Assembly (NCBI GenBank): GCA_021793315.1
Contig: JAJYSZ010000011.1
Span: 1 to 54,287, forward strand
DNA: 54,287 nucleotides
Direction: 5' to 3'
DNA from: Bacillota bacterium
GTDB lineage: Bacteria; Bacillota; Sulfobacillia; JAJZYS01; JAJYTV01
The translations under genes were made by a program, and so were the position numbers. Numbering within the stretch: the first letter of the stretch is position 1; every line of letters begins with the position of its first letter. Shown here one piece after another: positions 1,313-19,524 of this stretch. Under the pieces are notes generated by a model. It worked only from the letters and a program-made list of their open reading frames with translations. It searched no databases and was not told where the DNA came from.

Positions 1313-1456
1313 GGAGGCCTGTGGCGGAGCTACGGGGCGCAGGATGGGCCTGGGTGAACGAGATGGCCGGAAATCGCCCGTAAGGGGAGTTCGTGCGGCG
1401 CGGGAACGCGCGATAAGGAAGATAGAGGGATCGGTGTGAACGAGGAGGTGGGTAAG

Positions 1457-2049: not shown

Positions 2050-2079
2050 TCGCCGGGGTTCTGAAAGGGGGAACCCAGG

Positions 2080-3597: not shown

Positions 3598-3638
3598 GAC
3601 GACGCAGACCCGGATCATTCGACGGGGAGGGAGAACCG

Positions 3639-4559
3639 GTGCGCATCACGGATCAGATGATGTATCAAAGCCTCACACAAAGCATTGACCAGGCCCAGGC
3701 CGCTTACGTTCGCACTCAGGAAGAGGCAAGCTCCGGCGTCTCCATCTCGCAGCCGTCGGACAATCCGGCAGGCACGGCGGTCGTTCTCCAGCTGACGTCT
3801 GCGCAGCAGCAGGTGACTTCCTGGCAAGGCAATGCGCAGGTTGCGCAAAGCAAGATGCAAACGGCGGACCAGGCCGTGTCGCAGATCCAGAGCGTCATTA
3901 CCTCAGCACAGTCGCTGGCTGAGCAGGGTACGTCCGGAAGCATGACAGCCCAGGACCTCACGGACCTGTCGCAAAAGGCGGTCTCCCTGGTTCAGCAGAC
4001 GCAGAGCCTGGCCAATACGCAATATGCCGGGGAGTACGTATTCTCCGGCGTAGCGCAGCAGCCGCCCGTCATAAGTGGGGCGTACAATCCAGGGGCAACC
4101 TCCGCGCCGCAGTCCATGGAAATCGGGCAAGGTATCAAGGTGCAGACTACGGTGGATGGAAACCAAGCCTTCAACACCGCGCCGGCGAGCACGCCAAGCG
4201 ACTGGAGCACCTACCATTCGTCGCAGGCTACCCTCCTGAACGTGCTGTCGGCCCTGCAGTCCGATCTTGCGAGCGGCAACACGTCCGCGGTGGAGGCAGA
4301 CCTCGGCGCTTTGCAGGCACAAGGCGACAACATCTCCAGCCTGCGCGCGGATTTGGGCGCCAATATGGAGCAGGTGCAGGCAGCGGTTTCGCAGCTGACG
4401 ACCATGAGTTCCACGCTCCAGATCGAGCAGGGCAACGTGGAAAACGTGGACATGACGAAGATCCTCACCCAGCTTACGGCGCAGCAGACGGCCTACCAGG
4501 CGGCTGTGGCGGCTGGGGCCAACATGAAGCTACCCACGCTGGCCAGCTACTTGAGTTGA
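3639..4559 (+). CDS. flgL: Flagellar hook-associated protein 3 FlgL
   Basis: FlgL is the second junction protein and a short flagellin relative. The N-terminal helix MRITDQMMYQSLTQSI and the motif GVSISQPSDNPAGTAVVLQL match the flagellin/FlgL D0-D1 region, and the C-terminus (DMTKILTQLTAQQTAYQAAV) ends in the paired D0 helix. The length of 306 aa is typical. The GTG start follows GGGAGGGAG by a normal distance. The operon ends here at a strong hairpin, and the next genes are convergent. Confidence 0.94.
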   Translation: MRITDQMMYQSLTQSIDQAQAAYVRTQEEASSGVSISQPSDNPAGTAVVLQLTSAQQQVTSWQGNAQVAQSKMQTADQAVSQIQSVITSAQSLAEQGTSGSMTAQDLTDLSQKAVSLVQQTQSLANTQYAGEYVFSGVAQQPPVISGAYNPGATSAPQSMEIGQGIKVQTTVDGNQAFNTAPASTPSDWSTYHSSQATLLNVLSALQSDLASGNTSAVEADLGALQAQGDNISSLRADLGANMEQVQAAVSQLTTMSSTLQIEQGNVENVDMTKILTQLTAQQTAYQAAVAAGANMKLPTLASYLS

Positions 4560-4569
4560 GGAAACGGAA

Positions 4570-4596
4570 GGAGCCGCACCCGCCCGGTGCGGCTCC
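4570..4596. terminator. Bidirectional terminator between flgL and the fliS-fliD operon
   Basis: A perfect 11-bp inverted repeat (GGAGCCGCACC / GGTGCGGCTCC) with a CGCCC loop lies in the 48-base gap between two convergent operons. There is no long U-run, but position and stem strength fit a shared terminator. Confidence 0.75.
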
Positions 4597-4607
4597 TCGC
4601 CAGCTGA

Positions 4608-4895
4608 TCAGAACTTCCCGTTGAGTAAGCGGCCCGCAGCGTCCTGCCTCCTGCCGAAGTTGCGCAGCAGCGCACCCGTGATCCGGTGCTTGGTCGCGAG
4701 CTGGGCCGACACAAGATCGAGTTCCTCCAGGACATGCCTCACAACCGGCGTATCCGCCTGCTCGGGCGCAAGCCGGCCCAACAGCGCATCCGCAGCGCAG
4801 TGTGCCGTCCTGAAGGCCGACCAGTCGCCTTTTTCGAGCGCCGCCTTCTCCTGCTCGACCAGAGCGGCAAGGTCGGCGACATCCTGGCTAGGCAT
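4608..4895 (-). CDS. Small helical protein at the end of the fliS-fliD operon, FliT/FlgN-like
   Basis: This short protein (95 aa from ATG at 4895; an in-frame start 12 bases upstream is possible) has no recognised domain. It is predicted to be wholly helical, with two amphipathic stretches (ALVEQEKAALEKGDWSAF and VVRHVLEELDLVSAQLATK) and ends ALLRNFGRRQDAAGRLLNGKF-like, recalling the tails of FlgN/FliT chaperones. Its ATG overlaps the end of the acetyltransferase gene, so the two are translationally coupled. By position it could be the FliD chaperone FliT, whose sequence is poorly conserved. This is an inference from size and context only. Confidence 0.6.
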   Translation of the reverse strand: MPSQDVADLAALVEQEKAALEKGDWSAFRTAHCAADALLGRLAPEQADTPVVRHVLEELDLVSAQLATKHRITGALLRNFGRRQDAAGRLLNGKF

Positions 4896-5409
4896 GGGCC
4901 GAACCACCGGAACCGATCCAGGCAGCCATCAGCAGTTCATCAACTTGGTGGCCGTCGATCACGTATTGACCCTTGCGCACAGCCTCCACCTCGTAGCCGC
5001 TGTCCTCGAACAGGGCGCGCCCCGCGGCGTTGGTCGCCAGAACGCTGAGGGTGAGCTTGCGCACCCCGACCACCTGTGCCCAATTGCGCATTGCGGCCAT
5101 AAGCGCCTTGCCGACAGTTTGGCGGCGAGCGGACCTGTCCACCACGATGGCCATCGACGACACATGCAGGAGAGACTCCGTGGTGCCGCGCGAGGCATAG
5201 AGATAGCCGACCAGGTCGTCCCCGTGGAACGCGGTGAGCATCAGGTGGACGAGTGGGTCGGCGGAGGCGGCGAACTGGGCCTGTGTGTCGACGGTCAGGG
5301 GGAAGCGGTCGACGCCAAGGGAGCGGTCTTCTTCCGCCACCTTGTTCACCAGAGCGACAATCTGCTCGGCGTCCTCCGGGCGAGCGCTGCGGACTGTGGG
5401 CGTAAACAT
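4888..5409 (-). CDS. GNAT-family N-acetyltransferase within the flagellar cap operon
   Basis: The 173-aa protein is a single GNAT domain. Motif A is MAIVVDRSARRQTVGKALM (acetyl-CoA pyrophosphate loop, Q/R-x-x-G-x-A form), followed by KLTLSVLATNAAGRALFEDSGY, the usual N-x-x-A-x-x-L-Y/F-x-x-x-G-[FY] motif B. It starts three bases after the fliD stop, so it is co-transcribed with the filament cap gene. Acetyltransferases encoded in flagellar loci can modify flagellin or glycan precursors; that role here is inference. The acceptor cannot be read from the sequence. Confidence 0.85.
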   Translation of the reverse strand: MFTPTVRSARPEDAEQIVALVNKVAEEDRSLGVDRFPLTVDTQAQFAASADPLVHLMLTAFHGDDLVGYLYASRGTTESLLHVSSMAIVVDRSARRQTVGKALMAAMRNWAQVVGVRKLTLSVLATNAAGRALFEDSGYEVEAVRKGQYVIDGHQVDELLMAAWIGSGGSAHA

Positions 5410-5412
5410 GGG

Positions 5413-6831
5413 CTAACCTCCGCTTGAGCTGGAGCTTGAACTGGAGGAACCACCGCTGCCGTTGTTCAGCATGGCGGTGAGTAGGCCGGACAGCTGGTCT
5501 TTCTGCGACGTCACCGCGATCAGCGCCTGCATCTCCTGATTGAACTGGTCCTGCAAGGCGTTCTGCTGAATGGTGATGAGGCCCTGCTCCTGAGTCTCCT
5601 CGTTCGTCAGGTCCGAGATCTGGCTTTGGATGTTGGTCTGAACACCGGCAATTACCCCGGTGCTGGTGTCGCCAAGGTTATTGAGGACCGTCTTCAGCTG
5701 CGTGGCCACTCCGCCCGAGCCGGTGAAGATGGCCTGAAGTGCTTGCGCGTTGGAGGTAGCGGCCGACTGAAAGGTACTGGCCGAGAACGCGAGCTGGGTT
5801 GTGTTGTCCGACTGAAGGTTGATGGTGATGCCCGCATCCGCGATACTCTGGTACCCGACCGGGGCCGACGAATTCGTTGCCAACAGGGCCGAGTTGATCT
5901 GCTGCATGATGCCGTCGGCTGTCGGGTCCCCTTGGAGGATCGCACCCTTGCCTGTAGCCTTGTTGATGGCAGACTGGAGTGCGTTGTAGTCGCTGATGAA
6001 TTGGTTCAGGGCAGATTGGGCCTGACTTGTGGAGGTCGAGACAGTGACGGTGGTCGAGCCGGCCCCCTGCAGGTTCAGCGTAAGGCCCGGGACGGCCACG
6101 GAGTCTGTGCCGGTCGTGCTGGATGTTTGCACGCCGTTTACGGTGTAGACCCAGGACTTGCCCGTGTTAGGCTGCTCCACCATTCCGAGTCCGCTCGACC
6201 CCGTACCCTTCAGGATGTTGCTCGGGTCGCTGATGTTGAGTGCCTCGTACTGAGTGGAATCCAAGGCCAGATAGTAGGAAGTGACGCCATTGTTGGTGCC
6301 GGTCATGACGGTGGCAGTCGCGCCAGCGGAGGCGGCGTTGATCTTGGCAGCGATGGAAGTCAAGCTGTCCGTTGACGTGACGTTGATGGAGGAGCCGTTG
6401 ATCGTGAAGGTTCCCTGGAGATTCAGAGCACTGCTGGATGATGCCTCCGACTGACCAAGCCACTGATCGTAGGCGCCCTGCGTGGTCACGTCGACGTTGT
6501 ACGTGCCGGCACTGGCGGTCGAGGATGCACTTGCGTCGACTACGCCTGTGGGCGAGACCGACGCGGAAGGTGACGACCACGTCGTTGCGGTGGAGAGGGC
6601 GCTTGCATCGCTGGCGAGAGCATTGACATCCGCTTGAATACCGGACCAAGTTTGCGAGACCTGAGTAAAGTTTGAAATCTCATTTGTAAGGGTTTGGATA
6701 GGTTGCTCGAGCGCGGTCTCCTCCTCCTGCTGCAGCTGTGACAAGCCAGTAAGGTTCAACCCAGGATAGAGAGCCTGCAGCAACTGCGGGTTGTTCAGCA
6801 GACTGCCGAGGGGCGAGGCACCACTGCTCAC
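5413..6831 (-). CDS. fliD: Flagellar filament cap protein FliD
   Basis: FliD (HAP2) caps the filament tip and promotes flagellin polymerisation. The N-terminal FliD_N region (LLNNPQLLQALYPGLNLTGL, then EEETALEQPIQTL) and the C-terminal coiled coil (IQSQISDLTNEETQEQGLIT) are clear. The protein (472 aa) ends in a low-complexity Gly/Ser tail with nine consecutive serines. The GTG start overlaps the fliS stop (GTGA), and the GNAT gene follows at once. The poly-Ser tail is unusual and may be exposed at the filament tip. Confidence 0.93.
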   Translation of the reverse strand: MSSGASPLGSLLNNPQLLQALYPGLNLTGLSQLQQEEETALEQPIQTLTNEISNFTQVSQTWSGIQADVNALASDASALSTATTWSSPSASVSPTGVVDASASSTASAGTYNVDVTTQGAYDQWLGQSEASSSSALNLQGTFTINGSSINVTSTDSLTSIAAKINAASAGATATVMTGTNNGVTSYYLALDSTQYEALNISDPSNILKGTGSSGLGMVEQPNTGKSWVYTVNGVQTSSTTGTDSVAVPGLTLNLQGAGSTTVTVSTSTSQAQSALNQFISDYNALQSAINKATGKGAILQGDPTADGIMQQINSALLATNSSAPVGYQSIADAGITINLQSDNTTQLAFSASTFQSAATSNAQALQAIFTGSGGVATQLKTVLNNLGDTSTGVIAGVQTNIQSQISDLTNEETQEQGLITIQQNALQDQFNQEMQALIAVTSQKDQLSGLLTAMLNNGSGGSSSSSSSSSGG

Positions 6832-7202
6832 TTGGAGTCACCTCCTTGGGAGACACCTTCGAATCCATCTCGCAGATTGCCCAGCACCAAGGCGACACCG
6901 TCGATCGCTTCCCCGTCGTGAGAGATGTTTGCCTTGCCCAAGGTGATTTCGCACCAAGAAAAGAGATCCTTCAGGTTCTGCCCAACTTCTTCTGTACTGT
7001 CCCAATTTGCGCTGCGCAACTGCACCAGCACCTGCTGCGCCGACACAAAGTGTTTGTTTGAGGTAGCCAGGTCTTGCGCTGCAAGGGCACGGCGCCCCAC
7101 CAAGATCGAATCTACCAGCACCCGAAGCAGCGTGCCCATGGATGCGCTGTCCGAAGTGGCCTCTCGTTGAATCCGCCGATACGCTTCGATTCCGCTTTTC
7201 AT
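6828..7202 (-). CDS. fliS: Flagellin chaperone FliS
   Basis: FliS binds the C-terminal helix of flagellin in the cytoplasm and keeps it from polymerising before export. The 124-aa protein begins MKSGIEAYRRIQREATSDSA, matching the FliS N-terminal Tyr-containing segment, and has the four-helix pattern including LLRVLVDSILVGRRALAAQD and the C-terminal LVLGNLRDGFEGV. ATG at 7202 is chosen because AAGGGTGAT lies just upstream; the frame stays open further 5' into the fliC terminator. It is coupled to fliD by a 4-base overlap. Confidence 0.82.
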   Translation of the reverse strand: MKSGIEAYRRIQREATSDSASMGTLLRVLVDSILVGRRALAAQDLATSNKHFVSAQQVLVQLRSANWDSTEEVGQNLKDLFSWCEITLGKANISHDGEAIDGVALVLGNLRDGFEGVSQGGDSK

Positions 7203-7228
7203 GCGATCACCCTTATATGAGATGGGGC

Positions 7229-7261
7229 ACTGGGTGCAGGGCGTGGGCCCGTGCACCCAGT
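7229..7261 (-). terminator. Hairpin terminator downstream of fliC
   Basis: The 10-bp arms ACTGGGTGCA / TGCACCCAGT enclose a GC-rich loop between the fliC stop and the fliS start. It probably terminates most of the flagellin message while allowing some read-through into fliS-fliD. Confidence 0.7.
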
Positions 7262-7282
7262 ACTAGGACGCCGGTTGGGCCT

Positions 7283-8803
7283 CTACGGGATGAGCTTCAG
7301 GAGCGCCTGCGGCATGGCGTTGGCCTGAGCCAGCATACCGACACCGGCCTGCTGCAGGATCTGGTCACGCGTCAGGTTTGACATGCCCGACGCGATGTCC
7401 GCGTCCATGATCTGCGCGCGCGCCGCCGTCAGGTTCTGCGACGAGGCCTGCAGGTCCGACGCGGCGAACTGAAGGCGGTTCTGGTAGGCGCCGATCGTGG
7501 CGCGCTGGTTCGAGACCGTGTTGATGGCGTTGCCCAGCACAGTCAAGGCAGCCTGTGCGTCCGCCTGCGTTGTGATGTCGATGCCGGTGGTCGCCTGGGC
7601 GTTGCCTGTACCGTTCGTGTAGGTGTTGGCTGAGCTGCCGCTCTGTGCAAGGGTAAATGCGGTAGCGGTCAGCGCGGTCGGGGCAGCTGGCGCGATCGCG
7701 GTGGCGGGGCTCGTGTAGGCTTGGGTCGTGTAGCTGTTGGACGTCTCGCCAGCAGCGGTTCCCTGCACCGCGAAGGAGAGAGCCCCACTGCCAACGGAGA
7801 CGCTCTCCACCGTACCGGTTGCGATTGCACCCTTGACCGTGGTTGTGCCTGCAGCGGCGCCAGTCAGCGAGAAGTTGGTCGATGTCGGGTTCACGGTGAA
7901 CTGCAGTGTGTCGCCAGCGGTCGCGGCCGCGAGCGTGAGGGTCATGGCACTGCCGTTCAGCATGACGTTGTTGAAGGCCAAACTGCTGGTGGAGGCCGTG
8001 TACTGGGTGGAGGTGCCCGAGGCGCCGTCCGTGACGGCGATTGTGGTGTTGCCGCCGGAGACCGAGGAGACCACCTGCACCGACGCGGTGTCCGCGGTCG
8101 ACGCGTTGTAGGAACCGGCGAGGGTCTTGAAGTCGGCGGTCGTGCCGCCGATGCTGGACAGGTTCCACGGTGTGACGGTCGCAGCCAGGGAGTAGGTGCC
8201 GACCGGTACACCAGCGGCGTTGACCGTCTGGCCACCAGCCAGGCCACCGGCTTCAGCGACTTGTCCGGCGGTACTGACAGTGCCGTTCAAGCCTGTGACA
8301 CCCAGCGAATACGCGTCAGCCGCGGCGATGCCTACCTGCAGGGCCTGGTTCTGGTCGGCGCCGATCTGGATGGACTGTCCCTGGAAGTTGCCACCCAGAA
8401 GGTTCAAGGTGTTGAAGTTCGTGTCGTTGGTGACCTGCGAGATCTGCTGAGTGTACTGGTTCATCTCAGCCTGCAAGGCGCCCAGGTCTGTCGAGTTGTT
8501 GGTGCCCGTGGCGGCCTGTGAGGCCAAAGACCGCATGGACTGCAGGATGCTCTGGATCTGTCCCAAGGCGCTGTCGGCGGTCTGGAACAGGTTGATGCCT
8601 GTCTGAGCGTTCTGGTAGGCCTGGTTCATGCCGCTGACTTCGCTCTGCATCTGCTGCGCGATTGCGAGGCCAGCCGGGTTGTCCGCGGCCGAGTTAATCT
8701 TCAGACCTGAAGACAACTGACCGAGGACATTCGTCATGTCGTTCTGCGTGTTGCTGAGGTTCAGCCACGCATTCATGGCGGCGACGTTCGTGTTTACGAA
8801 CAT
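7283..8803 (-). CDS. fliC: Flagellin
   Basis: This is the filament subunit, 506 aa from the ATG at 8803 (MFVNTNVAAMNAWLNLSNTQ); the open frame continues upstream but lacks flagellin similarity. The D0/D1 regions are canonical: LSSGLKINSAADNPAGLAIA near the N-terminus and NRLQFAASDLQASSQNLTAA with DADIASGMSNLTRDQILQQA at the C-terminus, ending MPQALLKLIP. The central D2/D3 region (about residues 170-420) is variable and Ala/Thr/Gly-rich. GGGAAGG precedes the start. fliS, its chaperone, is the next gene. Confidence 0.97.
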   Translation of the reverse strand: MFVNTNVAAMNAWLNLSNTQNDMTNVLGQLSSGLKINSAADNPAGLAIAQQMQSEVSGMNQAYQNAQTGINLFQTADSALGQIQSILQSMRSLASQAATGTNNSTDLGALQAEMNQYTQQISQVTNDTNFNTLNLLGGNFQGQSIQIGADQNQALQVGIAAADAYSLGVTGLNGTVSTAGQVAEAGGLAGGQTVNAAGVPVGTYSLAATVTPWNLSSIGGTTADFKTLAGSYNASTADTASVQVVSSVSGGNTTIAVTDGASGTSTQYTASTSSLAFNNVMLNGSAMTLTLAAATAGDTLQFTVNPTSTNFSLTGAAAGTTTVKGAIATGTVESVSVGSGALSFAVQGTAAGETSNSYTTQAYTSPATAIAPAAPTALTATAFTLAQSGSSANTYTNGTGNAQATTGIDITTQADAQAALTVLGNAINTVSNQRATIGAYQNRLQFAASDLQASSQNLTAARAQIMDADIASGMSNLTRDQILQQAGVGMLAQANAMPQALLKLIP

Positions 8804-8917
8804 GTCCTTCCCGCGCCCTCCGACGCGGATTTCCCTTCCCTTCCTTGATGATCTCGCTCCCCCGTCGAGGAGCATCTGGAGGGTGAACCCTCTAGAGGTT
8901 CTACCTGTCCTATCGGT
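8804..8917 (-). promoter_or_regulatory. Leader and possible sigma-28-type -10 of fliC
   Basis: On the - strand the sequence ACCGATAG (8917-8910) resembles the flagellar sigma-28 -10 element GCCGATAA, but I see no TAAA -35 at the expected 15-base spacing. The resulting leader would be about 105 nt. It carries a small hairpin (GAGGG/CCCTC with a 4-base loop) near 8880 and a purine-rich run of GGA motifs (AAGGAAGGGAAGGG, CGGAGG, GGAAGGAC) up to the start codon. No csrA or fliW gene is in the window. Confidence 0.35.
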
Positions 8918-9043
8918 CGTGGTCGGAAGATCTGGAGAAGCGAAATGCCGCCAATAGTGGCCTAGCTTCCCTATGAAGGGCGTCCATCTTGCGCTAGCGG
9001 CCTCATTCTGCCGGAAAGCTCGCCTTTGCTCCCGTTTGGTGCA

Positions 9044-9661
9044 CTAAAGCTTGCGCATAGCCTGCAGTCGCTTGCGTTCCTGGCGCAATACGTAGGCGAT
9101 GACGCGGTCCTGGTCCATCTCCTTGATCTCCATGAAGTCGCAACCGATCAGCCGGCCCCCCTGTGGCGACTCTCCCGAGCGCACGACGTACATGGTGAGA
9201 GGGATCGGGGCACCGGTCTCGAGGAAGAGCGTCGCGGAGACGATGTCCTGCTTCATGATGCCGGTGGCCGGCGGGCAGTGGGCGAGGAGGCCGCAACCGG
9301 AAAGGTCGACCGCCCGGCAGGCCGTCTCGCCAATGATGAGAGGCAGATCCACCGGCGTGCGGTGGAAGCGCCGCTTGGCGAAGCGCTCGATCATCAAAGG
9401 TTGGCGCGCGGTGACGCTGCCTTCAGCCGCCGACAGGACGTCCAGCTCGGCCACGAAGGTTGCCGTGTCGGCGTCGACGCGGGCGATGATGTGGCTGCCT
9501 GCCGGGAAGGGGACGCCGCGCCACCGCCTGCCGAGAGGGACGAACGTGAGCGTGCGCCCGTCCTGAGATGCGAGTTTTGCCGGCAGCACCACCGGGCCGT
9601 CGGGAGTGGCGCGCTCGAGGGAAACCTCGGCACCGACCGGAAACTCATGCGACTCTTCCAA
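9044..9661 (-). CDS. YcgR-like flagellar brake protein with PilZ domain
   Basis: The protein (205 aa) has two domains. Residues about 8-90 form a YcgR-N-like beta domain (FPVGAEVSLERA ... VPLGRRWRGVPFPAGSHIIA). Residues about 95-200 form a PilZ domain with the c-di-GMP-binding signatures RRFHR (97-101) and DLSGCG (119-124), the R-x3-R and D-x-S-x-x-G motifs. YcgR proteins bind c-di-GMP and slow the motor. It is transcribed divergently from the fliN-che operon. Binding residues appear intact, so it is probably a functional receptor. Confidence 0.88.
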   Translation of the reverse strand: MEESHEFPVGAEVSLERATPDGPVVLPAKLASQDGRTLTFVPLGRRWRGVPFPAGSHIIARVDADTATFVAELDVLSAAEGSVTARQPLMIERFAKRRFHRTPVDLPLIIGETACRAVDLSGCGLLAHCPPATGIMKQDIVSATLFLETGAPIPLTMYVVRSGESPQGGRLIGCDFMEIKEMDQDRVIAYVLRQERKRLQAMRKL

Positions 9662-9891
9662 ACTTGCGGCCCCCCGCTGAGGATGCTTTCAGAGGGATCA
9701 TGTGACTTCGCAGGATAAAGTCTTTGGGTAGAGAATCAGGACCGAAGTTCTTAGCCGGATCTCGCGCCCACGGTAGCAGATGGGCTAAAGTGGTTACAAG
9801 CGAGAAAGGTACATTAGGACCTATTCGACGCAGACCTCCCCATTCATGCTGCATTAACGGCGATGGCCGCTGGATCGGAGGCGATGACGAT

Positions 9892-10323
9892 ATGGCCGAA
9901 GATCCCATGCTGAGCCAGGCAGAGATCGATGCTCTGCTGCGTTCGCTGCAGGAGGAAGCACCGCAGCCGGACGCACCGGCGCAGGAGGCCGCGACCGCCG
10001 TCACGCAGACGTCCGCCCTGGCCAGGCCCAGGGCAGCGGTGCCGGCGCACGCCGCCTATGACCTGCCGCCGGGGTTCGGCCTTCTGCTCGGCGTGCAGGT
10101 TGCGCTGTCCGTGGAGATCGGCAGCACGGTGCTGGAGCTTGGGGAACTGCTGCAGCTCGGGCGCTCCTCGCTGATCGTGCTGAACGGCCGCGTCGACGCC
10201 CCCCTGATTCTGCGGATCAACGGCGTGCCCTTCGCCGAGGGCGTCGTCGTCGAGACGAACGGCCGGTACGGTCTGCGCATCACGGAACTTTTGCAGCCCG
10301 AGGAAGGAGCTAAGGCCTCTTGA
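9892..10323 (+). CDS. fliN: Flagellar motor switch protein FliN (FliY-like N-terminus)
   Basis: The C-terminal SpoA domain (VQVALSVEIGSTVLELGELL, then LIVLNGRVDAPLILRINGVP) is the C-ring FliN fold. Unlike ordinary short FliN, the N-terminus carries MLSQAEIDALL (residues 6-16), the peptide by which FliM and FliY bind CheY-P, separated by a Pro/Ala linker. It therefore looks like a reduced FliY. ATG at 9892 is chosen with GGAGG 11 bases upstream; the frame is open further 5' without similarity. Its stop overlaps the cheX TTG start. No fliM lies in the window. Confidence 0.9.
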   Translation: MAEDPMLSQAEIDALLRSLQEEAPQPDAPAQEAATAVTQTSALARPRAAVPAHAAYDLPPGFGLLLGVQVALSVEIGSTVLELGELLQLGRSSLIVLNGRVDAPLILRINGVPFAEGVVVETNGRYGLRITELLQPEEGAKAS

Positions 10324-10784
10324 ACGTCGAGTGGATCAACCCGTTCATCCGCGCCGCAAACCATGTGCTTGGCGAGACTGTTTCCTTCAGCCCCGCGGAG
10401 CTTGGCCAGCTTCAGGTGGAGGAGATACCCTACACTACGCAGGACGTCACCTGCATGCTCGGAGTGTCGGGCGTTCTGTCGGGCTCGGTGCTCTTGGGCA
10501 TGCCGGAAGCCGTGGCGACGGTCATCATCGAGCGGATGGTCGGCCAGCCCACACCCGTGTCGGACGCTCTTGGAGAGTCCGCCCTGGGCGAGGTCGTCAA
10601 CATGATCTCAGGTTCGGCCCTGCGCTTCCTCGAAAGCGCCGGCTACACCTGCACCATCACCCCGCCTGTCGTGATCCGCGGCCGGGGCGCCGTCATCTCC
10701 ACCGCGGCCAAGAAGCGGCTCGTCGTGCCCATGCGCTATGGCGACGCCCTGATGCATCTCGCCGTTTCGCTGCAGCAGGGCTGA
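10320..10784 (+). CDS. cheX: CheX-type CheY-P phosphatase
   Basis: The 154-aa protein matches the CheX/CheC/FliY phosphatase fold. It begins with the CheX N-terminal pattern NPFIRAANHVLGETV and carries one active-site helix, ESALGEVVNMISGSALRFL, containing the E-x-x-N catalytic pair. CheX dephosphorylates CheY-P and usually works as a dimer. The TTG start overlaps the fliN stop, so motor switch and phosphatase are co-translated. A CheC-like gene further down the operon gives a second candidate phosphatase. Confidence 0.85.
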   Translation: MNVEWINPFIRAANHVLGETVSFSPAELGQLQVEEIPYTTQDVTCMLGVSGVLSGSVLLGMPEAVATVIIERMVGQPTPVSDALGESALGEVVNMISGSALRFLESAGYTCTITPPVVIRGRGAVISTAAKKRLVVPMRYGDALMHLAVSLQQG

Positions 10785-10797
10785 GGAGGACTACCCG

Positions 10798-11868
10798 ATG
10801 AGGCGCATGCGTCTAGGCGAGGGAGCCGTCGGCTATACGCTCGCAGACCCCCCGACCGACGCCACCGGACGGCCGCTCGCGCCGCGCGGCACCGTAATCG
10901 ACGAGGAACTCCAGAGGCGTCTGCGGGCAGCGGGCGTCCACATAGTCTTTGTCGATGACGCCGCCTTCCAGGATCTTCAGTACTCTTCGCTGGTCTCCCC
11001 GCCGACGCTCCGCCTGGCGGCCGCCGTGTACCGCGAGGCCAGAGAGCGCCTGCAGTCGCGCCCCAACGAACCCCTGCCCTACGTGCCCTTCCTGCACCTG
11101 GCGCAGGCGGTGATCCAGGATTCCTTCGATACGCCGCTCGACATGGCCGCCGTGCTGCACCCGCAAAACCAGGCACAGCGCGACGAGATCCATGCCCTGA
11201 ATCGCGCCAGCCTCGCGGTGCGGCTGGCGCATGCCATGCGTCTGCCGCGCTACGCGAACGACCTCGCCGCCGGGGGCCTCGCCTGTGACCTCGGCATGAT
11301 GCTGGTGCCGTCGGAGATCCGGTGGCGCCAGGGGGATCTTTCCTCGGCGGACATGGAGGCCCTGCATGCCCACATCGGCTCCGGGCTGCGCCTGGTCGAG
11401 GGGAGAGAGGGCTGGACGGCCGTGACGCGCGCCGCGATCGCCCAGCACCACGAGCGGATGGACGGCAGCGGCTACCCGAACGCGCTGCGTGGCGAGGATA
11501 TCCACCCGACGGCGCGCATCCTGGCGGTCTGCGACGTCTTTTCCGCCATGCTGCTGCCACGGCCCGACAGGGAGGTCCTCTCCCCGGAGGAGGCCCTGGC
11601 CGAAGTGGATGGGGCGGCTGGCAGCCTCTTCGACTACGACACGGTCGTCGCGTTCCACCACATGGTGCCGCCGTTTCCGGTCGGGACCGAGGTGGAACTC
11701 TCGACCGGTGAGCGGGCCGTGGTGCTGCGGGTGCCCGGCAGCCTCAAGGCCCGGCCGCTCGTCCGGGTGTTCATGGACCGAGACGGCAACCGGCTGTCCG
11801 AGTTCGCCGAGCTGGACCTCAGCCAGCGCGACATGCAGGCGACAACCATCTTGCGCGTGATCGCTTAG
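10798..11868 (+). CDS. Degenerate HD-GYP domain protein in the chemotaxis operon
   Basis: The middle of this 356-aa protein (about 130-255) is an HD-GYP domain, family c-di-GMP phosphodiesterase. The signature HHERMDGSGYP (217-227) and ARILAVCDVFSAM are present. The HD dyad, normally L-H-D-I-G-K, reads ACDLGM (162-167), so a metal-binding His is Cys and the Lys is Met. An N-terminal region of about 120 aa and a C-terminal beta-rich domain (GTEVELSTGERAVVLRVPGS) flank it. Catalysis may be lost or altered, leaving a binding or sensing role. GAGGAGGAC precedes the ATG. Confidence 0.82.
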   Translation: MRRMRLGEGAVGYTLADPPTDATGRPLAPRGTVIDEELQRRLRAAGVHIVFVDDAAFQDLQYSSLVSPPTLRLAAAVYREARERLQSRPNEPLPYVPFLHLAQAVIQDSFDTPLDMAAVLHPQNQAQRDEIHALNRASLAVRLAHAMRLPRYANDLAAGGLACDLGMMLVPSEIRWRQGDLSSADMEALHAHIGSGLRLVEGREGWTAVTRAAIAQHHERMDGSGYPNALRGEDIHPTARILAVCDVFSAMLLPRPDREVLSPEEALAEVDGAAGSLFDYDTVVAFHHMVPPFPVGTEVELSTGERAVVLRVPGSLKARPLVRVFMDRDGNRLSEFAELDLSQRDMQATTILRVIA

Positions 11869-11889
11869 CTGAATCGGGGGGAAGAGGCA

Positions 11890-12249
11890 GTGGCCAAGAT
11901 CCTGGTGGTGGACGACGCCATGTTCATGCGCAGCAGACTGCGCGGACTGCTCGAAGGAGCCGGGCACACCGTCGTGGAGGCGGCGAACGGCAAGGAGGCC
12001 GTCGAGACCTATGAGCGCGAGCGGCCGGCCCTTGTGCTGATGGACGTCACGATGCCGGAGATGGACGGGCTCGAGGCCCTGAAGCGCATTCGCCAGGGCA
12101 CCCCTGCCGCGCGCGTGATCATGTGCTCCGCGCTCGGCCAACAGTCGATCGTGCTGGAAGCGATCAAGGCGGGAGCCAAGGACTTCATTGTCAAGCCATT
12201 CCGGCCGGAAAAGGTATTGGAGGCCGTCACCCGCCAGGTAGTGGGCTAG
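11890..12249 (+). CDS. cheY: Chemotaxis response regulator CheY
   Basis: This single receiver domain of 119 aa has the acidic pair D8/D9, phosphoacceptor D52 in LMDVTMPEMDG, the switch Ser S80 (MCSALGQQ) and K102 (IVKPF), all in the expected places. Phosphorylated by CheA, it binds the motor switch, probably through the EIDALL peptide of the FliN encoded upstream. The GTG start is 21 bases after the HD-GYP gene, with GGGGGGAAGAGG-type purines before it. Confidence 0.94.
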   Translation: MAKILVVDDAMFMRSRLRGLLEGAGHTVVEAANGKEAVETYERERPALVLMDVTMPEMDGLEALKRIRQGTPAARVIMCSALGQQSIVLEAIKAGAKDFIVKPFRPEKVLEAVTRQVVG

Positions 12250-12278
12250 AGGAACTCGGACTTTTCTTATTCTTACGG

Positions 12279-12284
12279 TATAAT
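12279..12284 (+). promoter_or_regulatory. Candidate vegetative promoter -10 ahead of cheW
   Basis: A perfect TATAAT sits in a short AT-rich island (TTTTCTTATTCTTACGG precedes it) inside otherwise very GC-rich DNA, 45 bases before the cheW ATG. The -35 is poor (CGGACT at 16 bases). It would give cheW-cheA and downstream genes an internal, flagellar-independent start. Confidence 0.5.
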
Positions 12285-12328
12285 TTGGTCGCCCAGGACG
12301 TGGTTATCGGGCGCCGGGGGTTGAAGCA

Positions 12329-12853
12329 ATGAGCGACGGGGACCTGCAGTTTGTGCTCTTTGAGATCGAAGGCGTCCGCTACGGCGTGGAAGTGGAGAAC
12401 GTTCTGGAAGTCATTACGCGCCCTGAGGTAAGCCAGGTGCCCTCCGCCCAGGACTTTGTCCAGGGCGTCATCAATCTGCGCGGCAAGGTCCTTCCCGTCA
12501 TGGATCTCAGGCGGCGCTTCCGCCTGGGGGGCGATTCCACCCGGTCGACCCACATCGTCATCATGCAGCTGCACAGCGAGACGGCCGGCATTGCCGTGGA
12601 CGGCGTGTCGCAGGTGGTGCGCATCCCGGTCGAGGCGATCGAGCCCCCTCCCGCCGCGATCTCCGGGCCGCAGGCGCGCTACGTCGTGGGCATCGCGAAA
12701 CTCACGGGCTTCCTCGTCGTCCTGCTGGACCTCGCTCAGGCGTTCGAGGAATCGGACCTCGCCATCGAAGCCGGCCCCAAGGCAACCCTTGGAGCCAGTC
12801 ACACGGCCACGCAGGGTCAAGCTGGGATGCGGGGGGCAGACCATGGCGAATGA
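12329..12853 (+). CDS. cheW: Chemotaxis coupling protein CheW
   Basis: CheW links receptors to the kinase CheA in the signalling array. The 174-aa protein has the two SH3-like beta barrels of the family: VLFEIEGVRYGVEVENVLEV and the hallmark GVINLRGKVLPVMDLRRRF, then VDGVSQVVRIPVEAIEPPP. The C-terminal 25 residues after the fold are low-complexity and overlap the start of cheA by 11 bases. The ATG follows a GGGGG purine stretch by 8 bases. No chemoreceptor gene is in the window. Confidence 0.94.
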   Translation: MSDGDLQFVLFEIEGVRYGVEVENVLEVITRPEVSQVPSAQDFVQGVINLRGKVLPVMDLRRRFRLGGDSTRSTHIVIMQLHSETAGIAVDGVSQVVRIPVEAIEPPPAAISGPQARYVVGIAKLTGFLVVLLDLAQAFEESDLAIEAGPKATLGASHTATQGQAGMRGADHGE

Positions 12854-14822
12854 TCTCGGCTGGTCCTTGACCGAAGACGATCGGCAGCTGTTCCTTGCCG
12901 AAGCCGAGGAGCTCGTGCAGGTGCTCGAGTCCGGTGCGCTCGCGATGGAGCAGGGCGGCATCGCCGATGACACACTCCAGGCCATGTTCCGCGCCGCGCA
13001 TACCCTGAAGGGCAATGCGGGCCTGATGGGTGAGCAGGGGCTCGCCGATCACATGCACCGTCTCGAGGCCCGCTTCGACGACCTCCGCGCGGGGCGTGTG
13101 GCGCTGACGCCCGCCATGATCCAGGCGGTGCTCTCCGGCATCGACACGATGCGGGATCTTCTGGCGATGTTCGCCCGCGGCGAGTCGCCCGCCGCGGCCC
13201 CCGAGGCGTCTTCCGCGTCGGACGTCGGGGCCGCGGCCGCCGAGGCGGAGATCGCTGACGACGTTGCGGTCATCGCGGGCCCGGCCGGGTCTGGCGGGCC
13301 GCGCTACCGCGTACGCCTCGAGGTCAGCGCGGATTGCCCCATGCCTGCCGTGCGCATCTTTCAGGCCTACCAGGCGCTCTCGCGGGCCGGCCGCATCGAG
13401 TCGAGCCAGCCTGGACAGGAGTCGCTGGCCCAGTTCCAGGGTCGTGCGGCCGAACTCCTTCTGGTGCTCGATTCCGCGGCTTCCCCGGGTTCCGGGACGG
13501 AACTGATCGCCGCGGCGCTCGAGGGCGTCGACGACATCGGCCTCGCGCGCGCCGAAGAGGAGAAGCCCCTGGCGGCTGCTCCCACCGCTGCCGGTTCCGG
13601 CTCGGGCGGTGCCGGCGAGAACCTGGAGCAGTCCGGGGCTCAGACGGTGCGCGTGCGCGTCGACCTCCTCGACCACCTGATGAATCTCGTCGGCGAGCTG
13701 GTGCTTGATCGCACGCGGGTCGCCGACCTGATCGGCCACCTCGAGGGCGGGGGCAAGGATCAGGACCAGGAAGAGATCCGCAATGAGCTCTCCCGGACCT
13801 CGGTCCATCTTGGGCGCGTCACGCTGGATCTGCAGGAGACCATCATGAAGGCCAGGATGCTGCCGATCGAGCACCTCTTCCGGCGCTATCCGCGCCTCGC
13901 CCGAGACCTCGGCCAGAAGGCGGGCAAGAAGGTCCAGTTCGAGATGACAGGTCTCGACACCGAACTCGACCGCATGGTCATGGACGAGCTCGGCGACCCT
14001 CTGACGCACCTGTTGCGCAATGCCGTGGACCACGGGATCGAGCGGGCGGAGGTGCGCAGGGCCGCCGGAAAGCCCGAGACGGGTCGGGTGCGGCTGCACG
14101 CCGGCACCGAGGAAGGCTACATCGTCATCGAGCTATCGGACGACGGCGGCGGCATCGACGTGCAGCGGGTCAAGGAGGTAGCGCTGCAGCGCGGCGTGAT
14201 CACTCCCGAGCAGGCCGAGCAGCTGACGGAGCGGGAAGCCCAGGAGCTGATCTTCGCGCCGGGCTTCTCGACGGCGAGCCAGGTTACCGAGATCTCCGGG
14301 CGAGGCGTGGGGCTCGACGCCGTACGCAGCTCGCTCGAGCGCCTGTCGGGTCTGATCGAGATCGTGAGTCAGCGCGGTGAGGGCACCACCTTCCGGCTGC
14401 GCATACCGCTCACCCTGGCGATCATGCGAGCCCTTTTGGTGCGCACCGGCGAGGAGATCTACGCCTTGCCGCTCAGCGCGGTGCGCCAGATCGTCAAGCT
14501 CACCGAGACCAACGTCCAACAGACCTACGGGCGTTCCCTGCTGGCGGACCGTGGCCAGCTGATACCCCTGCAGGGACTCTCCAAGCTCTACAGCGGGCCG
14601 GAGCGCGCGGACGAGAGCTTCGCCGTCGTCGTGGGCAGCGGCCGCCAGCAGATCGCCCTCAGGGTGGAGGCGCTCCTGGGGGAACAGGAGATCGTGCTCA
14701 AGTCGTTCGGAGACTTCCTCGGCGCTGTGCCGGGCCTCACCGGCGCGACCATCCTGGGCGACGGCCAACTGGCCCTCGTGACGGACGTGCGCTTCTTCCT
14801 GCAGGGCAAGGAGGCCTCATGA
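12843..14822 (+). CDS. cheA: Chemotaxis histidine kinase CheA
   Basis: All CheA modules are visible in 659 aa: HPt domain P1 with phospho-site H53 (FRAAHTLKGNAG), a P2-like CheY/CheB-binding region (RYRVRLEVSADCPMPAVRIF), the P3 dimerisation helices (RVDLLDHLMNLVGELVLDRT), the HATPase P4 with N box HLLRNAVDHGIE, G1 DDGGGID and G2 GRGVGLDAV, and the CheW-like P5 (EEIYALPLSAVRQIVKL). ATG at 12843 is chosen because the HPt begins right after it; the frame is open much further 5' inside cheW but that is a shadow. It ends in an ATGA overlap with the CheC-like gene. Confidence 0.96.
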   Translation: MANDLGWSLTEDDRQLFLAEAEELVQVLESGALAMEQGGIADDTLQAMFRAAHTLKGNAGLMGEQGLADHMHRLEARFDDLRAGRVALTPAMIQAVLSGIDTMRDLLAMFARGESPAAAPEASSASDVGAAAAEAEIADDVAVIAGPAGSGGPRYRVRLEVSADCPMPAVRIFQAYQALSRAGRIESSQPGQESLAQFQGRAAELLLVLDSAASPGSGTELIAAALEGVDDIGLARAEEEKPLAAAPTAAGSGSGGAGENLEQSGAQTVRVRVDLLDHLMNLVGELVLDRTRVADLIGHLEGGGKDQDQEEIRNELSRTSVHLGRVTLDLQETIMKARMLPIEHLFRRYPRLARDLGQKAGKKVQFEMTGLDTELDRMVMDELGDPLTHLLRNAVDHGIERAEVRRAAGKPETGRVRLHAGTEEGYIVIELSDDGGGIDVQRVKEVALQRGVITPEQAEQLTEREAQELIFAPGFSTASQVTEISGRGVGLDAVRSSLERLSGLIEIVSQRGEGTTFRLRIPLTLAIMRALLVRTGEEIYALPLSAVRQIVKLTETNVQQTYGRSLLADRGQLIPLQGLSKLYSGPERADESFAVVVGSGRQQIALRVEALLGEQEIVLKSFGDFLGAVPGLTGATILGDGQLALVTDVRFFLQGKEAS

Positions 14823-15337
14823 GGCAGGGTGCCGATCCGCACGCGCTCGGCCCCGTGCTTGCCGACCTGCTCGGCGTGCCGGTGGAGCTGAGCGAGCAGG
14901 GCCGGCAGGCAATCGCCCTGCGCGAGCTGCCGAATCTGGCCGGGCCACCCGAGGAACCGTCCGTGGCGGTCTACCTGAGCGATGAGAACGGACGCGGGGC
15001 GCAGGTCCTGCTTCTCTTCCCGCTCCCCGATGCCCGGGCGCTCGGAGATCTCATGCTTGGCGAGGGCGCGGGCCCCGAGGAGATCCTCGATGCCTGCCGC
15101 GAGATCGGCAATGTCATCGCGGGCCGCTTCCTGTCGGATCTGGCCGACGCGGAGAGCGGCCGTCTGACGCCGACGCCGCCGCTTTCCACGGTGGACATGG
15201 CCGGAGCGGTGATCAGCTCGGTCCTTGCGAGCTCCCCCAGCGGAACCGGCGTCGTCAGTCTCCGCATCCGGATGCATGCCGGCGATCGCCGCATCTGCGC
15301 GACGCTCATCCTTCTGCGCATGGAGGCCGGCAGGTGA
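14819..15337 (+). CDS. cheC: CheC-like CheY-P phosphatase / CheD partner
   Basis: The 172-aa protein has one clear CheC-family active-site helix, ACREIGNVIAGRFLSDLAD, with the E-x-x-N pair. The N-terminal half (LADLLGVPVELSEQGRQAIA), where classical CheC has a second centre, lacks it. CheC binds CheD, and cheD is the next gene with a GTGA overlap, which supports the assignment. It may act mainly through CheD rather than as a strong phosphatase. The start overlaps the cheA stop. Confidence 0.82.
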   Translation: MRQGADPHALGPVLADLLGVPVELSEQGRQAIALRELPNLAGPPEEPSVAVYLSDENGRGAQVLLLFPLPDARALGDLMLGEGAGPEEILDACREIGNVIAGRFLSDLADAESGRLTPTPPLSTVDMAGAVISSVLASSPSGTGVVSLRIRMHAGDRRICATLILLRMEAGR

Positions 15338-15813
15338 GCCGCGCCTTGCCGGTCGGACTGGGCGAGGTCCGGCTGAGCCGAGACCAGTCCGAGCAGCTCT
15401 GCGTCTTCGGCCTCGGCTCCTGCGTTGCGGTCTTTCTTTATGCCCCGTCGGTGCAGGCGGTGGCGGCCGCGCACGTCGTCCTGCCGAAGAGCCCGCAATC
15501 GTCCCCGGGCGACGGATCCGAGCCCGGCCGTTACGCGGATCGCGCCGTGCCGCTGCTCATTGCCGAAATGGCCAGGGCGGGGGTTCCGAAATCTGCCCTG
15601 CGGGCCGCAATCGCCGGTGGGGCTGCGGTGCTCGGCTTCACCAGCGCGATCGGCGAGCAGAACATCCAGGCGGTCCGCCGCGAGCTGCTGCGACTCGGCA
15701 TCCCGATCGAGCAGGAGGACGTAGGCGGCAGCCGGGGCCGCTCGGTCATCTTCGACGCCGGGCAGCGGCGGCTCGATGTGCGCGTGCTGGCGGCCCCCAA
15801 CGTCAACATCTGA
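15334..15813 (+). CDS. cheD: Chemoreceptor glutamine deamidase CheD
   Basis: CheD deamidates receptor glutamines and is regulated by CheC. The catalytic Cys is C30 in FGLGSCVAVFLYAP and the His is H47 in AAAHVVLPKS, with the usual spacing. AIAGGAAVLGF and the terminal fold elements follow. At 159 aa the length is normal. Translation is coupled to the upstream cheC-like gene by a GTG start overlapping its stop. Confidence 0.93.
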   Translation: MSRALPVGLGEVRLSRDQSEQLCVFGLGSCVAVFLYAPSVQAVAAAHVVLPKSPQSSPGDGSEPGRYADRAVPLLIAEMARAGVPKSALRAAIAGGAAVLGFTSAIGEQNIQAVRRELLRLGIPIEQEDVGGSRGRSVIFDAGQRRLDVRVLAAPNVNI

Positions 15814-15855
15814 CCTTTCGCCCGAGTTCCGCCGCCCTGCAGGAGGTTCGACGAT

Positions 15856-16923
15856 ATGCTTCAGGGTACCGTGCGCGTCCTCATCTGCGACGACTCCGCC
15901 GTCGCCCGCCAGTTCATCGCGCGTGCCGTGGAGGGCGTGCCGGGCATCGAAATCGCCGGCCGGGCGGGCAGCGGCGAGGAGGCCCTGCGCATGGTGGGCC
16001 TCCTGAAGCCGGATGTCATCACAATGGATGTCGAGATGCCCGGCATGGGCGGCATCGAGGCGGTGCGGCAGATCATGCGGGCGGCGCCGACGCCGATCCT
16101 GATGGTCTCAAGCCTGACGCACGAAGGCAGCCGCGTGACGATGGAGGCCCTGAACGCCGGTGCGCTGGACTTCGTGGCGAAGCCGGCGAACCAGGAAGCA
16201 GCGCAGCATCTCGCCGGCGTTGTGGCGGAGAAGCTGCTCCAACTGGGCGAGCGCGGCAGGCAGGCTCTCGTGCTGCACAGCCGGCCGGCCATCTCCCCAG
16301 CCCAGCCAAGGGCGGTCACATCTCCCGCACCAGTGCCTTATGGCGCACACACGCCTCTTGTCATCATCGGTTCCTCCACAGGCGGTCCCAGGGCTTTGTT
16401 CAGTGTCGTGCCGCGGCTGCCCAGCCACTTCCGTCCGGCCGTACTGATCGTCCAGCACATGCCGCCGGGGTTCACGAAGTCCCTCGCGGACCGCCTGCAC
16501 GAGCAGGGCCCCTTGCCGGTACGGGAAGCCGAGGACGGCGAGGAACTGCGCGACGGCGTCGTGCGCGTGGCGCCCGCGGGTCATCACATGGTGGTGGCGG
16601 GCAGGCTCCTGAAGCTTCAGGACACGCCGAGCGAGCACGGCGTGCGCCCCGCCGTGGACGTCACGCTGCGCACCGCGGCCGCGAGCTATTCCGGGCCCGT
16701 CGTGGCGGCCATCCTCACGGGCATGGGCCGCGACGGCACGGAAGGTGCCCGCCGCGTCCACGAGGCGGGCGGGCGCGTGATCGCCGAGTCCGAGCGCACG
16801 GCGCTCATCTATGGCATGCCGAAGTCGGTCGTCGAGGCAGGCGTCGCCGACAGCATCGCCGACCTCGGCAATGTCGTGGACGAGATCGTGCGTTTCGTGG
16901 AGGAGGTATCCCGTGGCCACTGA
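15856..16923 (+). CDS. cheB: Chemotaxis methylesterase CheB
   Basis: CheB removes methyl groups from receptors. The N-terminal receiver domain has D12/D13, phospho-site D58 (ITMDVEMPG) and K109 (FVAKP). After a Pro-rich linker the esterase domain shows catalytic S174 (GSSTGGP), H201 (VQHMPPGFTKSLADRL) and D293 (TGMGRDG). All three catalytic residues are intact in 355 aa. AGGAGG lies 9 bases before the ATG. The end overlaps cheR by 11 bases. Confidence 0.95.
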   Translation: MLQGTVRVLICDDSAVARQFIARAVEGVPGIEIAGRAGSGEEALRMVGLLKPDVITMDVEMPGMGGIEAVRQIMRAAPTPILMVSSLTHEGSRVTMEALNAGALDFVAKPANQEAAQHLAGVVAEKLLQLGERGRQALVLHSRPAISPAQPRAVTSPAPVPYGAHTPLVIIGSSTGGPRALFSVVPRLPSHFRPAVLIVQHMPPGFTKSLADRLHEQGPLPVREAEDGEELRDGVVRVAPAGHHMVVAGRLLKLQDTPSEHGVRPAVDVTLRTAAASYSGPVVAAILTGMGRDGTEGARRVHEAGGRVIAESERTALIYGMPKSVVEAGVADSIADLGNVVDEIVRFVEEVSRGH

Positions 16924-17683
16924 CGACTACCAGGCGCTGCAGCAGGCAGTACGCCAGAGATTGGGCCTTGATCTCAGCCACTACAAGCGCGAGCAGATGG
17001 AGCGCAGACTGAGGGCCTACGCCCAGCAGCACGGCTACGGCGGCCTCGACGGTCTCGCCCAGGCGCTCGGCCACGAGCAGCCGCTCGGCGAAGAACTCCT
17101 CTCCTATCTGACTATCCACGTCTCCGAGTTCTTCCGCGATCCCGACTTCTTCACGCGCCTGCGCGAGCTCGTCGGCACCTTGCCGCGGACCGAGGCGCTC
17201 AGGGTCTGGAGCGCCGGCTGCTCGATCGGCGCCGAGGCGTACTCCCTGGCGATGCTGCTTTTCGAGGAGCGCGGCCCGGCCATGGCGCACATCCTGGCGA
17301 CCGACATCGACGACAAGAGCCTTGAGCGCGCCAAGGCAGGCGTCTACCGCGAGGATGAGCTCAAGAAGGTGGACCCCGGGCGCCTGCACCGCTATTTCAG
17401 CGAGGAAGGCGCGCAGTTCAGGGTGCGGGAGGATTTGAAGCGTCTCATCACCTTCCGCCACCACGACCTCCTGCGGGACCCCTACCCCGAGCAGCAGGAC
17501 CTCATCCTCTTCCGCAATGTCGCGATCTATTTCACCGAGGCGGCGAAGACGCAGGTTCTCCAGGGCTTCGCCCATGCGCTCGCTCCGCACGGGCTGCTGA
17601 TGGTGGGGGCCACGGAGGCCATCTTGCGGCCGCAGGAGGTAGGCCTGCGTCAGGTGCGGCCATTCTTCTTCGCTCGCGCCTGA
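16913..17683 (+). CDS. cheR: Chemotaxis methyltransferase CheR
   Basis: CheR methylates receptor glutamates using S-adenosylmethionine. The N-terminal helical domain (LDLSHYKREQMERRLRAYAQ) and the catalytic domain are present: VSEFFRDPDFFTRL, the SAM-binding WSAGCSIGAEAYSLAM, ATDIDDKSL and LFRNVAIYF. The SAM motif reads S-I-G-A-E-A where most members have S-T-G-E-E-P, a mild deviation. GTG at 16913 is chosen because AGGAGG lies 8 bases upstream and the domain begins there. The length (256 aa) is typical. Confidence 0.94.
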   Translation: MATDDYQALQQAVRQRLGLDLSHYKREQMERRLRAYAQQHGYGGLDGLAQALGHEQPLGEELLSYLTIHVSEFFRDPDFFTRLRELVGTLPRTEALRVWSAGCSIGAEAYSLAMLLFEERGPAMAHILATDIDDKSLERAKAGVYREDELKKVDPGRLHRYFSEEGAQFRVREDLKRLITFRHHDLLRDPYPEQQDLILFRNVAIYFTEAAKTQVLQGFAHALAPHGLLMVGATEAILRPQEVGLRQVRPFFFARA

Positions 17684-17748
17684 CGGCAAGGAATGCGCGG
17701 GAACTTTTGCGAACCGTACGCTAACCGCCTCTGAAGGGACGTGCCCGG

Positions 17749-18777
17749 TTGCCCTACGAACCCCTCAGCAACATGCAGGTGCGCATGCGCATCAAGGACC
17801 GCGGACCAGGCTACAGTGCCTGTCCGGTGACGGCAGGCGGCGGCCGATCCCTGCTCGTCCAGGTGCCGCGCGGCGAGGGAGGCCTACCTTGGGTGCCGCC
17901 TGGCACCGAGGTGGAGCTGCTGCGCAAGGATGGGCTCAGGGCAGCGGCGGGCACCGTGCGGGCGCGGACGCTCCGCCCCGTGCCGAGCTTGGCCGTCGAA
18001 CTCTCAGAACCGCTGATCCAGGACGTTCTCTACATGCCCAAGGAAGGGCGTGCCATCCTGGTCACCGGCGGCAAGGGAGGTTCCGGCAAGACGTTCGTCT
18101 CGCTCGGCCTCTCGCTGCTGCTCGCCCAGCAGGGCGCCCGTGTGGCCCTGATCGACGCAGACCTCGGCACGGCTGACATTGCCGTGAACCTGGGTCTGCA
18201 GAGCGAGCCGCACCTCGGCCATGTGCTGGATCGCAAGGTGTCGAGTGAGGCGGCGCTGCGGCAAGCGGTGCGGCCGAACCTCGCCGTCCTGCCGGGGGCG
18301 ATGGGAGCCCGCTGGGGCGACCCCTCCGTCTGGAAGCTCGGCCGTCTCCTCACCGTGGTGCAGGAACTGCGCCCGCTCTATGACTTTGTCGTGCTGGACT
18401 CCCGCGCCGGCGTCGGGCAGGACGTCACGGCCCTCTGGCAGGGCGTCGACCGCGTCCTCTTCGTCACGATCGACGAGCCCGCGAGCATGGCGGACACCCT
18501 CAGCCTGCTCCAGGCGTTCGGCGAGACGGGTCGGCTGCGCTCCGGCGCCTTGGTGGTCAACCGTGTGCACAGCTACCGCGACGCCTCCGAGCGCCTGCTC
18601 ACCTTCGCCAAGACGGTGCGCGAGCAGACGGGCAAGGAGATGCCGCTTTGGGGCGTCCTGCAGGAAGACCCTCGGGTGCATGCGCTGGCGGCGGAGGGCA
18701 AGCTTCTGATTGAGGCCTATCCCCTGGCACCCACCACGGTGGCGCTGCGTCAACTGGCGGCGCGCGTCCAGGCCTAG
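17749..18777 (+). CDS. MinD/FlhG-type ATPase with a YcgR-N-like N-terminal domain
   Basis: Residues about 100-342 form a ParA/MinD ATPase of the FlhG (YlxH) type, which controls flagellar number and position: deviant Walker A GGKGGSGKT (107-115), ALIDADLGTADI and the Walker-B-like FVVLDSRAGV. Residues about 8-90 do not belong to that family and resemble the N-domain of YcgR (GYSACPVTAGGGRSLLVQVP, then PPGTEVELLRKDG). The same pattern occurs in the PilZ protein at 9044-9661. No PilZ signature is present. The TTG start is weakly supported by AAGGGA upstream; ATG at 17773 is an alternative. It is last in the che operon. Confidence 0.82.
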   Translation: MPYEPLSNMQVRMRIKDRGPGYSACPVTAGGGRSLLVQVPRGEGGLPWVPPGTEVELLRKDGLRAAAGTVRARTLRPVPSLAVELSEPLIQDVLYMPKEGRAILVTGGKGGSGKTFVSLGLSLLLAQQGARVALIDADLGTADIAVNLGLQSEPHLGHVLDRKVSSEAALRQAVRPNLAVLPGAMGARWGDPSVWKLGRLLTVVQELRPLYDFVVLDSRAGVGQDVTALWQGVDRVLFVTIDEPASMADTLSLLQAFGETGRLRSGALVVNRVHSYRDASERLLTFAKTVREQTGKEMPLWGVLQEDPRVHALAAEGKLLIEAYPLAPTTVALRQLAARVQA

Positions 18778-18903
18778 GGCTAGGGCGCCCGCAGGTCTTG
18801 CAGGAGCATTTCGGGCCACCTGGAATGACATCCTATCCGCAGATCGGGCCCGTCGAGGCATCCTGCCGGGCAGGCGGCCCTTTGCGGGGAAGGAGGACGT
18901 TTG

Positions 18904-19338
18904 ATGCCCAGACTTGAGTCGGGAGACCAGTTCCCGGAGCTGCCGGGACTCGGCCCCGTCAACGCAGCGCGCGGCCAAAAGCCGTTTGTGCTCTATTTCT
19001 TCCCGAAGGCGTTCACGGGAGGCTGAACGACCGAGGCGCAAGACTTCGAGCGGTCGCTCGATCAGATGGGACCTAGAGGCATCCAGGTGTTCGGCTGCAG
19101 CACAGACGCGGCAGAGGTGAACCAGCGCTTCCAGCAGGAGCTCGGCGTCCACTTCCCGATCCTCTCGGACGAGGGGGGCGAGGCGGCCAGGGAGCTTGGC
19201 ATTCTGGGCGATACGGGACATGCCAAGCGCACCACCTTCCTCGTCGACGCGGCGGGCGTGCTGCGCCGGGTGTGGTACGACGTCAAGGTGGATGGCCACG
19301 CCGCGGCGGTGGCCACGGCGACCGAGTCCTTCAGCTAG
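18904..19338 (+). CDS. Selenocysteine-containing peroxiredoxin (BCP/AhpC-TSA type), in-frame TGA read as Sec
   Basis: Reading through one TGA (19024-19026) gives a 144-aa peroxiredoxin: FVLYFFPKAFTGG-U-TTEAQDFERSL, then GIQVFGCSTD and a normal C-terminus (FLVDAAGVLRRVWYDVKVDG), stop TAG. The TGA, codon 41, sits exactly at the peroxidatic Cys of the family motif P-x-A-F-T-x-G-C-T-T-E. The frame is intact on both sides with normal codon use, and AAGGAGG lies 7 bases before the ATG. A SECIS-like hairpin follows the TGA. There is no resolving Cys at +5 (Gln); C65 is the only Cys. Selenocysteine peroxiredoxins are known in some anaerobic Bacillota. A nonsense pseudogene is the alternative, but it would need a chance TGA at the one residue Sec replaces. 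Confidence 0.88.
19046..19061 (+). promoter_or_regulatory. Bacterial SECIS element
   Basis: A perfect 6-bp stem TCGAGC / GCTCGA carries a GGUC apical loop. The stem starts 19 nt and the loop 25 nt after the TGA, inside the coding frame. Bacterial SECIS elements need a small stem-loop with G among the first loop bases at about this distance. A competing 6-bp stem (CGACCG 19028-19033 with CGGTCG 19051-19056) is also possible. Confidence 0.75.
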
Positions 19339-19347
19339 ACACAGAGG

Positions 19348-19383
19348 AACCAGGGGCGGTCCCACGCGGGATCGCCCCTGGTT
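19348..19383 (+). terminator. Terminator of the selenoprotein gene / che operon
   Basis: A continuous 16-bp stem (AACCAGGGGCGGTCCC paired with GGGATCGCCCCTGGTT, one G-U pair) with an ACGC tetraloop, followed by CGTCTT, begins 10 bases after the peroxiredoxin stop. Confidence 0.88.
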
Positions 19384-19481
19384 CGTCTTGGGCCATGCCT
19401 TCAGTTGCCTCTTGCTTCTGCCAGCCCGAATGGTGCGGAATGTGGGCTCTGCCAAGGGAGCGGAGGGCGACGCAGTTCCAA

Positions 19482-19524
19482 GCACCCGGCAGCGAGTCGC
19501 GTTCGACGACTCACTGCCGGGTGC
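19482..19524. terminator. Second long hairpin, probable terminator for the convergent binding-protein gene
   Basis: Arms GCACCCGGCAG / CTGCCGGGTGC (11 bp) continue after a C-A mismatch into GAGTCG / CGACTC (6 bp) around a 7-base loop. It lies in the 322-base gap between convergent genes; apart from this and the preceding hairpin I see no gene in that gap. Confidence 0.6.

Follow-up and report, generated by a model that had tools for sequence, protein, structure and literature searches.

The gene at positions 18904 to 19338 of the window (the whole 54,287-nt stretch of DNA analysed here) very probably encodes a PrxQ-type peroxiredoxin with one selenocysteine (Sec), the TGA at 19024 being read as Sec. 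The initial annotation had described a frame that is open from ATG to TAG except for a single TGA at codon 41, and this description held: translation with TGA as U yields 144 residues, and the ATG follows a good Shine-Dalgarno-like AAGGAGG at a spacing of 7 nt. Also as foreseen there, the first in-frame start past the TGA is an ATG at 19066. Automatic annotation would miss or split this gene, a reading corrected here. The features are listed in Table 1.

Table 1. Coordinates of the Sec peroxiredoxin gene and associated features in the window.
Feature	Position	Strand	Details
Shine-Dalgarno-like AAGGAGG	18891..18897	+	read from sequence, upstream of ATG
PrxQ/BCP-type Sec peroxiredoxin gene (very probable)	18904..19338	+	144 aa, U41, ATG to TAG
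In-frame TGA, very probably Sec 41, peroxidatic residue of PxxxTxxU	19024..19026	+	TGA in 7 genomes
SECIS-like hairpin TCGAGC-GGTC-GCTCGA	19046..19061	+	same in 7 genomes, codons 48-52 constrained
C65 codon, sole ordinary Cys	19096..19098	+	residue comparison across homologues
Stop codon TAG	19336-19338	+	
17-bp hairpin just past stop	19347..19384	+	-38.1 kcal/mol, z -5.6, no T run

The read-through product matches Pfam AhpC-TSA with 93 bits over residues 22-122. The part after the TGA alone gives 63 bits, and the upstream 40 residues by themselves have no Pfam match. In an alignment of 46 homologues P34, T38, C/U41 and R109 are invariant, and column 41 is Cys or Sec throughout, which upholds the earlier placement of the TGA at the peroxidatic Cys position. 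The protein thus carries both the PxxxTxxC/U motif (here P34-x3-T38-xx-U41) and the conserved Arg of PrxQ/BCP peroxiredoxins. PrxQ models are its top NCBIfam matches, yet under their equivalog cut-offs. The PrxU model NF040737 demands 270 bits, and with a score of 33 bits the protein falls outside that family. The predicted fold (mean pLDDT 95.6) is closest to PrxQ among PDB structures; the top matches in sequence and fold are Xanthomonas campestris PrxQ (5imd/5iph) and a Burkholderia protein (5enu). The window protein differs from these PrxQ/BCP proteins in having Sec for the peroxidatic Cys, and Gln at both known resolving positions (Q46 and Q77), where a 2-Cys PrxQ has its resolving Cys at +5 or +36.

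The TGA at codon 41 is common to seven genomes of two genera in one family, namely the window's own, three genus-mates and three genomes of a sister genus, so its occurrence there is not accidental. The sequences of the genus-mate orthologues are identical to those in the public Bacillota MAGs HSP1.bin35, LSA2.bin86 and SKS1.bin49. Further TGA-bearing homologues occur elsewhere in the class and also in other phyla, and the remaining aligned homologues have TGC or TGT (Cys) or TGA at this codon. Between the window gene and L104, dN and dS are 0.10 and 0.78 before the TGA and 0.09 and 0.76 after it, so purifying selection acts on both sides. The gene is otherwise undamaged, as had been supposed. 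The nearest homologue lacking a TGA (L107, from genome G046 of the same class; 52% identity) shares the PKAFTGG-C/U context, but its catalytic codon is TGC and it has no GGTC hairpin. SelA was not detectable in G046 (94% complete), and the sole match to the tRNA-Sec model there scored 48.9 bits, the level of a tRNA-Ser gene in the window's own genome.

A search for selA, selB, selD and tRNA-Sec had been proposed in the initial annotation, which would have taken the absence of selA, selB or tRNA-Sec from a complete genome as a refutation; all four were found in the window's genome (210 contigs, 90% complete). SelA (534 bits) lies on contig C207 and is followed immediately by SelD (352 bits; C207:19436-20359, L010 / L135), SelB is on C15 (310 bits), and the tRNA-Sec on C107 (69 bits) was confirmed by ARAGORN with anticodon TCA. 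SelD itself has an in-frame TGA (SASG-U-GCK) and is a candidate selenoprotein.

The table's SECIS-like hairpin was compared with the published bSECIS model, which has a small apical loop with a G in its first two positions, 16-37 nt after the UGA (PMC13188914). Here the GGTC loop starts 25 nt past the TGA, inside that range, and begins with GG. The loop letters are identical in E. coli fdhF, whose sequence we read for this comparison, and lie 18 nt past its TGA. Codons 48-52, in which the hairpin is encoded, show no synonymous change across the seven genomes (P = 4.5e-4); the background for this value was the 53 columns with an invariant residue (TGA column excluded), 13 of which have a single codon in all seven genomes. 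A run of five one-codon columns anywhere arose in 1.8% of shuffles. Loosely defined hairpins of this type follow 24 of the 1266 TGA triplets in the window (1.9%), so the presence of a hairpin alone is weak evidence. Folding energy does not discriminate either: the 47-nt stretch after the TGA has a z of 0.2, the SECIS hairpin is not singled out, and in the window's own genome it competes with a CGACCG/CGGTCG pairing and is not the minimum free energy structure of those 47 nt. The SECIS assignment therefore relies on position, loop and synonymous conservation. An Rfam search of 18800-19400 gave no match, and the SECIS_1 model RF00031 had none in the window's own genome and none in the controls either, so that its silence carries no information.

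Taking the machinery, the hairpin and the conservation together, we infer Sec readthrough: SelB and Sec-tRNA-Sec, placed by the hairpin, would read the TGA as Sec. Other readings of the open frame fare poorly. A true stop, in a pseudogene or through an assembly error, would need a single base change from a Cys codon, but it is highly improbable given a TGA in seven assemblies, dN far below dS downstream, no further damage and the Sec machinery in the genome. Resequencing to TGC or TGT at 19024-19026 had been named as a refutation, and since the TGA stands in six other assemblies it is no sequencing error. Decoding of the TGA as Trp or by a suppressor would also give the open frame; it is just as improbable, for TGA terminates 12 of the 22 genes in the window, nearly all of them Pfam-supported, which makes the genetic code itself standard, while homologues have Cys at the position and the genome encodes tRNA-Sec(TCA) with SelA, SelB and SelD. 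Each of these readings (sequencing error, pseudogene, reassigned code) is either ruled out or has very little probability. Least probable of all is that the real gene is the 493-residue ORF on the minus strand (18004-19485). It is a long open frame, but antisense ORFs of such length are frequent at 67% GC, and this one matches nothing in Pfam and runs across a plus-strand ParA/MinD-family gene; homology on the plus strand led us to reject it.

With Sec at position 41, the selenolate would attack H2O2 or an organic peroxide and become a selenenic acid, a conversion that belongs to the known chemistry of the peroxiredoxin family. The initial annotation had read the resolving position as Gln (Q46, at +5) and C65 as the only Cys, and both readings were correct; Q77 aligns opposite C84 of Xanthomonas PrxQ. 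Its further suggestion of an unusual resolving chemistry found no specific support: 60 of 75 Cys-type relatives equally lack both canonical resolving Cys, and C65 is confined to the genus. Of the 25 Sec relatives, nine are entirely without Cys. Judged from the sequences of these relatives, the missing resolving Cys is apparently an ordinary trait of this PrxQ branch, unconnected to Sec. Nor did a test on the tree support a tie between having Sec and having lost the resolving Cys; Cys members lack it too, and independent pairs are too few.

Could C65 nevertheless act as an internal resolver, through a Sec41-Cys65 selenenylsulfide at a novel resolving position gained recently in one genus? In favour of this, it is the only Cys and is retained in all four genus genomes where the gene was found. 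The sister genus, however, has the same Sec active site with Ala at position 65, the residue elsewhere is mostly Val, Ile or Met, and C65 aligns with the strand residue V72 of Xanthomonas PrxQ, which is no known resolving site. We know of no described PrxQ with such a geometry, and consider this route unlikely. With no Cys at positions 46 and 77, and given the nine Cys-free Sec relatives, direct reduction of oxidised Sec41 by an external thiol, either thioredoxin or a small thiol, would be the most likely course. The window's genome has a thioredoxin reductase, but the search of this incomplete assembly for a canonical thioredoxin gave only a weak partial match of 31.6 bits.

Sec peroxiredoxins form a well-recognised family of selenoproteins (PMC13188914, PMC9312934, PMC1794560). 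They have been known since 2001; the Eubacterium acidaminophilum protein PrxU (Soehling et al. 2001, as related in PMC9312934) has the peroxidatic Sec in common with the window protein. The window gene matches the reviewed members (COG1225/PF00578, PxxxTxxU; PMC13188914, PMC9312934) in fold, motif, TGA position and downstream SECIS-like hairpin. It differs from them in lineage (an uncultured Bacillota genus and its sister genus), in lacking the canonical resolving Cys and in having one lineage-specific Cys65. It is a genuine further example within this family, and no surprise. Upregulation of PrxU has been reported in Sulfobacillus thermotolerans (PMC7409299), and unlike the window protein a second Sec peroxiredoxin of the same genome (L133, minus strand of contig C65 at about 18109-18414, G000:C65) falls inside NF040737, with 354 bits. 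This uncultured Bacillota lineage would thus employ selenium in peroxide defence via two distinct peroxiredoxin subfamilies. L133 is of the PrxU/AhpC type with the motif FYPGDFTFV-U-PTE, and has Thr at the C-terminal resolving Cys of AhpC (VTP for VCP) in all five genus genomes read; L129 has PTP.

On a tree of 100 rows, the most parsimonious history of the Sec/Cys state requires about 10 changes, at least 4 of them on well-supported branches. By this tree the catalytic residue has changed repeatedly from one of the two states to the other, which fits the published evidence of Cys/Sec exchange (PMC1794560), and such Cys/Sec pairs lend themselves to tests of the advantage that Sec has over Cys. 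Two further Sec-peroxiredoxin subgroups were seen. One is divergent and comes from four other genomes of the class (L118, L120, L123 and L124), with the motif YPKDNT-x-GU and xNPGS in place of the usual GxSxDS; the other (L117, L119, L126 and L130, from four genomes of the same order) has YHLAFT-x-GU, and most of its members have a hairpin with an AGGT loop past the TGA.

Around the gene, a search for a classical promoter and terminator found neither; the very stable hairpin just past the stop codon probably marks the end of the transcript or stabilises it. Directly upstream, the window from 17 to 18777 holds flagellar genes (FliF, FlgK, flagellins and FliD), chemotaxis genes (CheA, CheD, CheB and CheR) and a ParA/MinD-family ATPase.
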